Shown: in pieces, positions 51,018 to 54,762 of the stretch
Position numbering within the stretch: the first letter of the stretch is position 1
Layout: each line of letters opens with the position of its first letter
Assembly (NCBI GenBank): GCA_030699125.1
Contig: JAUYKM010000013.1
Span: 1 to 54,762, forward strand
From: Candidatus Daviesbacteria bacterium
GTDB taxonomy: Bacteria > Patescibacteriota > Microgenomatia > Daviesbacterales > UBA10151
Reading direction: 5' to 3'
DNA length: 54,762 nucleotides
Translations under genes and position numbers: made by a program
Notes under the pieces: model-generated
The model's database searches: none
Seen by the model: the letters and a program-made list of their open reading frames with translations, nothing else
Told to the model about the DNA's origin: nothing

Positions 51018-51112
51018 TGTGCGCGCTTATGAAAAAATCCGAACCTCTTTTCGCCAAAGGTAGGCGGCGCGCCCCTTCCCGCGCCGCCCTCTATCCGCTC
51101 GGCCTTCGGCCT
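51018..51112 (+). pseudogene. Serine recombinase tail and GC-rich 3' module, copy 1
   Basis: One frame reads VRAYEKIRTSFRQR and stops at TAG (51060-51062). The same ending (YRKIRTSFSQR and stop) occurs on the reverse strand at the other copy (53031-53240). After both stops comes the same GC-rich module: GGCGGCGCGCCC, CGCGCCGCCCTCT, CCGCTCGGCCTTCGGCC. The two copies match at roughly 85% over about 80 bases and are inverted relative to each other. I read this as the 3' end and conserved downstream region of a recombinase gene. Confidence 0.6.
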
Positions 51113-51332
51113 CGCTCTATGTATTTTTTGCAAAGACAGAAAGACAAATGCGCGCGATTTTTATTATTATAGTCCCGCTGTAGCGGGACAGGAACACAAA
51201 ACCAAATTAATGTTTTCTTGCCCCAACCCACCCAGCGCGAAAACTTACTACTCCCATTTATTTTAACAGACCTTAGAAGCCAAAATTGAGATAAAATAAA
51301 GATGACACTAATTGACTATATTAGAACTTATT
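51113..51332. other. Gene-free stretch with a GC hairpin
   Basis: GTCCCGCT and AGCGGGAC (51172-51189) form a tight hairpin. A similar one, ATCCCGCT/AGCGGGAT, lies at 52987-53005 beside the other module copy. The rest of the stretch shows no gene. Confidence 0.5.
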
Positions 51333-52709
51333 TTATAAATTATTAGTCCAGCCGATGAATGTTGCTTTTCTTCGCATTGAGCCTCCATCTATATCTACTA
51401 TTTCTTGAGTATCAAGATTTAAAATTCCAAGCTTCATCTCTATTGCATTTGTGTTTACTGTTTGTGTCATGTCACTTTCATATGTTGTTTGACCAGGTTT
51501 TAATTTAAGATATGTCGTATAGATAAGGTATTTCTTGTCTGGCGACAAAGACACTGGAGAAATGTTATTCTTATCTATTAGGACTACTTTCTTTTCTACT
51601 GTCGTAACATTATATGTACCAATAGTCCCAGTCAAATTATCAGAGTAGAAAACTCTATCATTATCTAACCAAATAGTCGAGAGGCTGCCTATTTTTTCAA
51701 CATCAATCAAGTTTTTACCATCAGAATCTACGAGCGAATTTTGAGATGACATATCGAGAGTAGTTGAGTTTTCTTTTTGTATGTCACGAGTAAAAAGGAT
51801 TTTATTCCCATCAGGAGACCATGTTGCGAAACCCACAGAGGGATCAAGTAATATTTTCCCAGGCGTCCCGGTTTTTTGAGAATAAATTTGTTTATATACT
51901 AATTCACCAGAGTCTGGAATAGTGATAACATATAACCCAGACATAAAGCTTGTACAAGGATGTCCATATCCATAAGAATACACAATTATTTTTTTAGAAT
52001 CTGGAGACCATGTTGCTCCCGGACAACCAGTTTGTCTACCTTGGCTATCTGTAACTATCCGTAAGTTTTTTCCGTCAGCATCTATTATCCCCAGCATTGA
52101 TGATTCCCATACGCCAATAGTAAATAATAGTCTTTTACTGTCAGGCGACCAAGCTAACGGATAATAATGTCTATTTTTACTAACATCACTCGAGCTTGTC
52201 ACATCTTGTAAAATATTTACTTCGGTTCCTGTCGTCATGTCACGCACAATAAGCTGATCTTCCAAATGATAAGCAAGTTTTTTATTATCTGGAGAAAGTT
52301 GAAGATTACCCATGTTGGTATTTTTATTGCCTTTTGATGAGATAAGTACTTTCTTTTCTCCAGTCTTTAAATCTAGTTGTATCAATTCATCATATTGATC
52401 AGTTAAACTATTAAATACGGTTTTTTTGTAAAGAATCTTTCCTACACTTACGGATCGAAATACTTGTAACTCTAATGACAATGTGTTCTGAGTACTTGAA
52501 GAAGAAGAGGTTGTTTTATTGACAGGAAGAGTTTGTGAGGATGTACTATATTTTTGATAATAATAAAACCCAGCTATTACTAGTACAATAACTATTATTA
52601 AAATTAAGATTAGTGTAATACCTTTTTGATTCATTAAATTTCGTTTTAATTGGGGAGTTTCAGGAACGGATTGAATAGGTTTATTTTGTTCAGTATTTTC
52701 TACTTCCAT
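51333..52709 (-). CDS. Membrane-anchored TolB-like beta-propeller protein
   Basis: The protein has 458 residues. A cytosolic N-terminus and one membrane segment (about 30-52) precede a Ser/Thr linker. Then come PD40/TolB-type propeller repeats, recognised by LSPDNKKLAYH, AWSPDSKRLLFT, TWSPDSKKIIVYS, TWSPDGNKILFTRD and LSPDKKYLIYT. The propeller should face outside and bind proteins or ligands. No enzyme motif is seen. The gene is enclosed by the two inverted recombinase tail relics and may be their cargo. Confidence 0.82.
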   Translation of the reverse strand: MEVENTEQNKPIQSVPETPQLKRNLMNQKGITLILILIIVIVLVIAGFYYYQKYSTSSQTLPVNKTTSSSSSTQNTLSLELQVFRSVSVGKILYKKTVFNSLTDQYDELIQLDLKTGEKKVLISSKGNKNTNMGNLQLSPDNKKLAYHLEDQLIVRDMTTGTEVNILQDVTSSSDVSKNRHYYPLAWSPDSKRLLFTIGVWESSMLGIIDADGKNLRIVTDSQGRQTGCPGATWSPDSKKIIVYSYGYGHPCTSFMSGLYVITIPDSGELVYKQIYSQKTGTPGKILLDPSVGFATWSPDGNKILFTRDIQKENSTTLDMSSQNSLVDSDGKNLIDVEKIGSLSTIWLDNDRVFYSDNLTGTIGTYNVTTVEKKVVLIDKNNISPVSLSPDKKYLIYTTYLKLKPGQTTYESDMTQTVNTNAIEMKLGILNLDTQEIVDIDGGSMRRKATFIGWTNNL

Positions 52710-52747: not shown

Positions 52748-52843
52748 GTGAAATTTTAATTTGTTTGATAACTTATGTTCTATGATTTAGTTTGTAATAG
52801 ATAGTTCATCTTGTTTTGTATTCGTTTAGGTGCTAAATTTTCA

Positions 52844-52930
52844 GTGGACTCAACATTTTCTGGAATTGTGTTTTTTAATGGCGCAATCGGACAACAAAAC
52901 ACAATTCTTGTTGAGTCCACCGGTTGCGCC
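52844..52930 (+). ncRNA. Candidate structured RNA with an H-type pseudoknot
   Basis: Three perfect or near-perfect helices interlock. P1: GTGGACTCAACA (52844-52855) with TGTTGAGTCCAC (52909-52920). P2: GAATTGTGTTTT (52863-52874) with AAAACACAATTC (52896-52907). The loop segment GGCGCAATCGG (52880-52890) pairs with CCGGTTGCGCC (52920-52930) just after P1, closing a pseudoknot. In forward RNA the only irregular pair is U-G, while the reverse strand would have A-C, which favours forward transcription. A TTTT follows. It lies in the 629-base gap between the TolB-like gene and the recombinase gene. I know no matching RNA family. A DNA recombination site is the main alternative. Confidence 0.5.
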
Positions 52931-53338
52931 TTTTAAGAGAAAAACAAAAAGGGAAAAAGTTCTTTAAAAAATTTTCGCGTTTTTTGATCCCGCTAAAAGC
53001 GGGATGTTCGAGCCGACAGTTTTAGAGCTTCGGCCGAAGGCCGAGCGGACAGAGGGCGGCGCGAAAATGGGCGCGCCGCCTACCTTTGTGAAAACGAAGT
53101 TCGGATTTTTCGATAAAGGTCGACAGAAAATGAATCCGCAAAAGTGAGCCTGGATTGGCTCTGCGCGGGAGGGCGCGCGCAGAGCTCTGCAAAGCCCTTT
53201 TTGTACGAGACTGCAAGTTGCCGGAGTGAAAAAGAACAAAAAACGGAAGAACGCGAAAATTTTGGAATTTCTTAGAAAGAAGCCTGCTCGCAAGCTCGCT
53301 TAAAGAACTTTTAAGAGAGAGGGGGGAGAAATAATTTT
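52931..53338. other. Long mosaic leader before the terminal recombinase gene
   Basis: The stretch holds a GC hairpin (52987-53005), a 17-base block (53006-53022) that is the perfect inverted copy of 54702-54718, a reverse-strand recombinase relic, and repeated AACGCGAAAATTTT-type words in both orientations. A ribosome site GGGGGGAG precedes the ATG. No convincing promoter was found. Confidence 0.5.
53031..53240 (-). pseudogene. Serine recombinase tail and GC-rich 3' module, copy 2 (reverse)
   Basis: The reverse strand reads LRQLAVSYKKGFAELCA, then continues to YRKIRTSFSQR and a stop at 53080. The intact recombinase gene that follows on the other strand has NRQLAVRYKKG in its C-terminus. About 45 bases (53195-53237) match 54718-54762 as an inverted repeat. 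After the stop comes the same GC-rich module as in copy 1. It is a relic of a related recombinase inserted in the opposite direction. Confidence 0.65.
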
Positions 53339-54762
53339 ATGAAATATATTGCTTACTGTAGAAAATCCCGAGAGGAAAAGGATAAACAAATACTATCTAT
53401 TTCTGCTCAAATTGCGGAGTTGAAAGAGTACGCCAAAAGAGAACATTTAGAAATTAGCGAATTTGTAGAAGAAGAAAAAACTGCTAAGGTTCCTGGCAGA
53501 GAAAAATTTGCTGAAGTGTTAAAGAAGATAGAAAAACAACAAGTAAGTGGAATTATTGCCTGGCACCCCGACCGTTTAGCAAGAAATAGTATTGATGGGG
53601 GGAAAATTATTTACCTTTTAGATACAGGAAAATTACTTGATTTAAAATTTCCGACCTCTTGGTTTGAAAACACTCCTCAAGGAAAGTTCATGTTAAATAT
53701 TGCTTTTGGTCAGAGCAAGTATTATGTGGACAATTTGTCAGAAAATGTAAAGCGAGGATTAAGGCAAAAAATCCGAAATGGTGTTTATCCTGGCAAAGCT
53801 CCTGATGGTTATATAAACAATCCAAAAACTAGAGGAATAGATGTTGAGCCAGAAAAGTTAAATGCAATTAAGAAGGCGTTTGAATTATTTGCAGAAGGCA
53901 ATAAAACTTTTACTGATATTGCTATTTTTCTCCATAAATTCAACCTTAAAAGAAAAAATGGCAAACCATTACATATAAACGAAATCCGAAGAATTTTAGC
54001 AAATAGATTCTATGTTGGGATTATGGAATACAATGGAGAATACCACGAAGGTACGCATAAAACCATTATCTCCAAGGAATTATTCCAAAAAGTCCAGCAA
54101 GAATTAAAGTTTAGAGATAGACATAAGAAAAGAAGATATAACTTTGCTTTTATGGGTTTGATGAAATGTGGGGAATGTGGAGCAACAATTACAGCAGAGG
54201 TACATAGGAAATACTATAAAGGCACCAATAGAACTGCTGAATATGTTTACTATCGTTGCACTAAAAAATTAAAACCTTGCACTCAGAAATATATTCCAGA
54301 GTCGGAATTAAAAGCCCAATTTAGAAAAGCAGTTGATGATGTAGCACTTCCCCAAAGTTGGGCAAGTGATTGGTATAAATGGTTAGATGATGACGAGAAG
54401 CTAGAAGTTGTATCGATACATGAGAACATTGACAGATTAGAATTGGAACTAAAATCCTTAGATATAAAACTAAATAAACTTCTTGATGGTTATTTAGAAG
54501 GAATTATTGCCCCTGAAATTTACAAGACAAAAAAGAACGAATTTTTCGAAGAAAAATTAAAAATAAATGAAGAATTGGAGCAAATAAAACAGAACGGTTC
54601 GAGTTGGCTCGAACCTTTCAAAAACTTCATTGGTAGCGCACTATCGTGCGCAAAAATCGCGCGCGCAAAAAATACATCCGAAGAACTAGCATTCTTCGGA
54701 AAAACTGTCGGCTCGAACTTCTTTTTAACTAATCGGCAACTTGCAGTCCGATATAAAAAGGG
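53339..54762 (+). CDS. Large serine recombinase, cut by the window end
   Basis: At least 474 residues are present. The catalytic domain begins MKYIAYCRKSREEKD with Ser10, followed by WHPDRLARN and the helix NLSENVKRGLRQKI. The recombinase domain (GYINNPKTRG, ITDI-like FTDIAIFLHKF) and a zinc ribbon (CGECGATI...CTKK...C) come next, then a coiled coil and a C-terminal region ending NRQLAVRYKKG at the edge. The reading frame has no defect. It is only distantly related to the island recombinase at 44054. The tail shares words with the relic at the start of the window, so both may belong to one subfamily that uses tRNA-Gly or a similar site. Confidence 0.92.
   Translation, partial: MKYIAYCRKSREEKDKQILSISAQIAELKEYAKREHLEISEFVEEEKTAKVPGREKFAEVLKKIEKQQVSGIIAWHPDRLARNSIDGGKIIYLLDTGKLLDLKFPTSWFENTPQGKFMLNIAFGQSKYYVDNLSENVKRGLRQKIRNGVYPGKAPDGYINNPKTRGIDVEPEKLNAIKKAFELFAEGNKTFTDIAIFLHKFNLKRKNGKPLHINEIRRILANRFYVGIMEYNGEYHEGTHKTIISKELFQKVQQELKFRDRHKKRRYNFAFMGLMKCGECGATITAEVHRKYYKGTNRTAEYVYYRCTKKLKPCTQKYIPESELKAQFRKAVDDVALPQSWASDWYKWLDDDEKLEVVSIHENIDRLELELKSLDIKLNKLLDGYLEGIIAPEIYKTKKNEFFEEKLKINEELEQIKQNGSSWLEPFKNFIGSALSCAKIARAKNTSEELAFFGKTVGSNFFLTNRQLAVRYKK

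Follow-up and report, generated by a model that had tools for sequence, protein, structure and literature searches.

A conserved pseudoknotted RNA, candidate leader of a large serine recombinase in Patescibacteria

What is encoded in the 87 bases that lie between a TolB-like gene and a recombinase gene at the end of a contig from Candidatus Daviesbacteria (GCA_030699125.1, JAUYKM010000013.1)? The window, as we call the whole 54,762-nucleotide stretch analyzed, contains at positions 52844–52930 of its forward strand three helices that interlock as a pseudoknot. The evidence assembled here indicates that this segment is almost certainly a structured RNA conserved across copies. With a probability of about 55%, this RNA is a new cis-acting 5′ leader that would gate translation of a large serine recombinase targeting transfer RNA (tRNA) genes.

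The inverted repeats that form the knot join 52844–52855 to 52909–52920 (A, 12 bp), 52863–52874 to 52896–52907 (B, 12 bp, or 13 with a G-U) and 52880–52890 to 52920–52930 (C, 11 bp including one U-G). These positions and lengths agree with the original prediction for this locus, which had however counted base 52920 twice, in the 12-bp A as well as in the 11-bp C. Homologues give this base to C; judged by them, helix A really comprises 52845–52855 (the probable 5′ end of the RNA) and 52909–52919. The 5′ strands of B and C are separated by loop 1 (52875–52879), which consists of the end of a U run and AAU. Loop 2 (52891–52893), a conserved ACA, follows the 5′ strand of C, and the 3′ strand of C (C′, 52920–52930) directly follows the 3′ strand of A (A′). 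The nested A+B hairpin alone is predicted at −32.5 kcal/mol (z = −4.95), a value equaled by 0 of 200 shuffles. Among 5000 dinucleotide shuffles, 3121 held no helix of at least 9 bp, and 44 held three or more of any kind. Single helices of at least 9 bp are thus not very rare, so the decisive evidence is homology rather than the lone sequence.

Among 374 genomes of the class, 49 matched a loop pattern, TTTTTAATGG-N7-GGACA, as did none of the reversed controls; of 380 genomes from the phylum, 29 gave a hit to a covariance model built from 50 copies. After duplicate removal, 78 copies across Patescibacteria were analyzed, with 49 distinct rows in the first covariation count; since they are interrelated, all p values given below are optimistic. 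The carriers belong to Microgenomates groups (Daviesbacteria, Levybacteria, Woesebacteria and others), Magasanikbacteria, Jorgensenbacteria, WWE3 and other taxa. A second copy in the same genome stands ahead of another recombinase; every helix differs in its letters, and the architecture is equal. Among the 80 loop-pattern matches listed from genome contigs, helix C pairs in about 47 of 50 from Patescibacteria vs 1 of 30 from elsewhere. This sole exception, on a contig of a metagenome-assembled Woesearchaeota genome, is identical to a copy from Gottesmanbacteria, and the contig is therefore probably misbinned. None of the 77 loop-pattern matches in viral contigs form the knot. A helix-only descriptor that ignores sequence is too loose by itself (about one match per 40 kb in viral controls). 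The family is new: no Rfam 15 family matches 52844–52930 at its gathering threshold, the best and chance-like hits being microRNA precursor families far below it, and the open-licence papers searched do not describe this RNA. One further locus (L149, near 2954, minus strand) holds a hybrid knot made of the left halves of two copies, the second of them inverted and joined head-to-head to the first; a cargo-type gene lies to the right of this knot.

Do these copies preserve the pairing rather than the letters? Over the 49 distinct rows, 99.1% of the cells in the A and C pairs can pair, vs 29–46% when the partners are slid by one to three columns, and 163 cells are changed on both sides vs a shuffled mean of 60. 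The covariation score is 0.448, vs 0.128 for shuffled and 0.024–0.094 for slid partners. Helix A is 99.2% paired, with double changes at four of the eight pairs counted in these rows (nine pairs were counted on the 78 copies); in helix C, 6 of 11 pairs show double changes. For helix B, the Watson-Crick run with the copy's own partner is mostly 7–10 bp, vs a mean of 4.1 when partners are swapped between copies. Exceptions to Watson-Crick pairing in the 78 copies are G-U in 126 cases vs A-C in 12 (54 vs 11 without the conserved wobble column). Since G-U is tolerated and A-C is not, the forward strand is the RNA, as had been proposed from the single imperfect pair of the window copy. The search for homologues with compensatory changes thus recovered a structure that exceeds both types of control in covariation, and the opposite outcome, with sequence kept and pairings broken, did not appear.

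Some positions are nearly invariant. Counting from A′, pair four of C is a U-G wobble in 48 of the 49 distinct rows and in 72 of the 78 copies. AAU of loop 1 pairs with AUU and lengthens helix C in most homologues (about 64–77 of 78 copies); in L348, a fully paired CAGGAA/UUCCUG takes the place of this extension and brings helix C to 18 bp. The ACA of loop 2 is present in 70 of 78 copies, a figure that partly reflects search bias because the first pattern required these letters. Loop conservation in general was partly imposed by this pattern, and in copies found through the model or through the recombinase the loop letters do vary. Three other readings of the sequence were considered and rejected. 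A short open reading frame from an AUG in loop 1 (MAQSDN..., MAALDN...) varies between 10 and 26 amino acids, all aligned copies encode its Asp with GAC, and its AUG pairs with CAU in the extended helix C. No gene crosses the UUUUUUA that resembles a slippery frameshift site, and the CCA after C′ that would suggest a tRNA-like acceptor end is absent from several copies, including that of the window.

Where does the RNA begin? A −10-like promoter box, TAAATT with an upstream TGn, lies at 52834–52839 on the forward strand, 5 nt ahead of helix A. In 63 of 78 copies, a match to TATAAT in at least five of six positions lies 4–6 nt before helix A, vs 1–7 copies at shifted positions, which places the probable start of the RNA at helix A. 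We infer that transcription proceeds from the first base of this helix.

The gene that follows (53339–54760, forward strand, cut by the contig end) encodes a large serine recombinase with all three expected domains (Pfam Resolvase, 8.5e-23; Recombinase, 8e-16; Zn ribbon, 2.4e-10). It shares these domains with large serine recombinases of the Ccr/XisF kind, but does not come near the cut-off scores of the models named CcrA/B/C and XisF; those enzymes are not known to have such a leader. The RNA heads a recombinase gene on the same strand in 43 of 78 copies; this position and the promoter-like box are as expected of a cis-acting leader. The start codon lies 7–47 nt after C′ in 25 of these copies and roughly 300–900 nt away in 18. 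The remaining copies face an antisense tRNA without a recombinase (15 of 78), are followed by something else (14 of 78) or reach a contig end (6 of 78).

Two sets of observations point to a role in cis. First, the predicted duplex between C′ and the anti-Shine-Dalgarno (anti-SD) sequence has a mean energy of −6.3 kcal/mol where the start codon is adjacent, vs −2.5 and −2.8 kcal/mol otherwise (p = 1e-9, or 1e-4 when only distinct sequences are counted); the C strand has no anti-SD complementarity in any class. A putative ribosome-binding site within the paired strand is thus a property of the adjacent-start class. Second, helix C has all of its 11 pairs in each of the 26 copies that precede a recombinase (26 of 26), one of which lacks a single A pair. 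A pair of C or A is lost in 15 of 29 copies without a recombinase vs 1 of 26 with one (p = 8e-5); three of the 29 (L138, L170 and L187) are probably chance matches, and without them 12 of 26 have a lost pair. Because pairs are intact with a recombinase and often lost without one, the RNA is likely linked to the recombinase in cis.

A leader of the recombinase messenger RNA (mRNA) could operate as follows. Transcription would start at helix A, and A and B would fold first, as a hairpin, whose loop (C) would then pair with the stretch just after it (C′). In the commonest arrangement, C′ lies 7–12 nt before the recombinase start codon and bears an SD-like sequence, such that C–C′ pairing would hide the ribosome entry site. 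Opening or rearranging this helix would set the recombinase level; candidate triggers are the recombinase itself, a ribosomal protein, an antisense RNA or co-transcriptional timing. Several points weigh against such a leader. In the window class, about 408 nt separate the knot from the start codon, which has a good SD of its own (about 53320–53328), and the C′ of the window copy is not SD-like. Hiding the ribosome site is therefore not the mechanism there, and another leader mechanism is needed: in this sub-class, with an attachment site between leader and gene, the knot would have to act from the 5′ end of the mRNA through standby binding, stability or elongation. In addition, copies without a recombinase often keep an intact knot, and the decay of pairs in the others could reflect death of the whole element. 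A few of the 29 recombinase-less copies probably match the pattern by chance, the spacing of the SD-like sequence (about 9–11 nt or more) is long in some copies, and the relatedness of the copies flatters the p values.

Leaders of this general kind have precedents. In the repZ leader of I-complex plasmids such as ColIb-P9, a hairpin loop pairs with a stretch that immediately precedes the start codon of a gene of the mobile element; this pseudoknot is short and activates translation. In contrast, helix C of the present RNA spans 11–18 bp, and its C′ strand is SD-like. The plasmids of this complex are also under antisense control by RNAI (PMC10724649). The tisB mRNA of E. coli carries a 5′ pseudoknot with a ribosome standby site, and its ribosome-binding site is sequestered about 100 nt away (PMC7708055). 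The likeness to tisB lies in a pseudoknot near the mRNA 5′ end that controls ribosome loading, at a distance resembling the long leader of the window. Unlike this toxin-antitoxin mRNA, the present RNA would lead a recombinase gene and in its commonest form abuts the start codon; the resemblance is one of arrangement.

Must all three helices coexist? A tentative but serious alternative holds that A+B and C are alternative folds of a bistable switch, the first leaving C′ open and the second closing it. The predicted mean energies of the two states are nearly equal (−29.0 kcal/mol for A+B vs −29.7 kcal/mol for C, with A+B better in 32 of 78 copies), which makes two states possible. Helix C can reach 14–18 bp and the linker after A′ measures 0–1 nt, a demanding geometry for all helices together. 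On the other hand, the loop lengths allow a folded-back three-helix arrangement, and covariation in both helix sets fits a switch and a knot alike.

It is unlikely that the RNA acts in trans, as a partner or guide of the recombinase or as a small regulatory RNA, instead of as a leader. Its own promoter-like box and the 15 copies, many of them intact, in which 75–500 nt and no recombinase gene separate the knot from an antisense tRNA would suit such a role. IS110 bridge RNA and the omega RNA of IscB and TnpB are likewise structured RNAs whose genes adjoin that of a mobile-element recombinase or nuclease, and serve as guides with target-matching parts. In the present case, the enzyme is a large serine recombinase and a comparison by eye revealed no target match; near-identical knots stand at different tRNAs (Gln in L185, Val in L156) with no visible guide. 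The pairs moreover decay where no recombinase follows, and among 30 recombinases (Pfam PF07508) sampled from Patescibacteria only about 4 have the RNA. We consider it improbable that the recombination complex includes the knot as a working RNA, needed to choose or activate the tRNA-end target and kept in recombinase-less satellites for use in trans. Slightly less probable still is a self-cleaving ribozyme that processes the element transcript: the compact pseudoknot, near-invariant wobble and conserved loop residues would be in keeping with one, but no Rfam ribozyme matches at E values up to 10, the AAU of loop 1 is mostly paired, and wider copies alter both the ACA and the U run.

The DNA that the recombinase acts on probably lies beside the knot. 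In the long class, that of the window, a 350-bp symmetrical stretch lies between knot and recombinase; in the window it is probably a complete attachment site (attP, 52959–53308, strandless), with arms P and P′ around the palindromic core GTCGAC (53119–53124). The right arm, P′, recurs unchanged (28/28) at the tRNA junction in nine copies (L009, L140, L148, L150, L151, L169, L181, L184 and L185), and the left arm, P, recurs with 38–40 of 40 matches at a junction 1–3 kb upstream in five (L148, L150, L156, L181 and L185). Elements end at tRNA 3′ ends of many isotypes, and the core equals the tRNA end: GTGC for Leu, GTCG for Pro, TGGTGA for Glu/Lys and TGGCTG for Gln. As the arms recur at element junctions, the probable DNA site of the recombinase adjoins the knot and is not the knot. 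That the knot itself is a recombinase-bound attachment or regulatory site, paired by symmetry only, is hardly tenable, since beyond its position next to a serine recombinase the interlocking arms covary, G-U but not A-C is tolerated, a promoter-like box lies at the edge, and a separate site is at hand.

The attP-like site of the window sits within an element that is already integrated. Its probable left junction (51019–51045, forward strand) consists of the core GTGC and a P arm, the same 27 bases as the P arm in the attP of the second copy. This left end (51019–51115) is of the GTGC (Leu) type, and the internal site, with GTCGAC, of the Pro type. The layout looks like two tandem modules, one with cargo and knot between inverted P arms and one with the recombinase between inverted P′ arms. 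In the long class, element ends that are otherwise similar carry different cores of 4–6 nt, each copying the 3′ end of its own tRNA, and a given lineage seems to switch its target isotype through its core. In L154, the DNA from about +78 to +400 past the knot, on the way to the tRNA, contains an antisense remnant of a recombinase N-terminus, as though inversion of the recombinase module at the palindromic cores were possible.

Upstream of the knot there is usually a divergent cargo gene, with its start about 160 nt from the knot end. In the window, this is the TolB-like (PD40) gene (51333–52709, reverse strand; Pfam PD40, 2e-12; TIGR02800 only below its cut-off). The Pfam matches to this protein and to the recombinase bear out the placement first given for the RNA between the two genes. 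Cargo genes upstream of many copies (for example L133, L139, L154, L166 and L182) share an N-terminal membrane leader, MENQINVGDQNTQQIG..., and differ in the rest of the sequence and in length, as if one leader had been joined to changing domains.

Most Patescibacteria are uncultured, and the control of their genes and mobile elements is poorly known. The RNA described here forms a strongly covarying family tied to elements that integrate at tRNA ends, and its pseudoknot helix is unusually long with a near-invariant wobble. It offers a covariance model that is ready for use, a marker for such elements and a way to test directly whether a leader controls a DNA recombinase.
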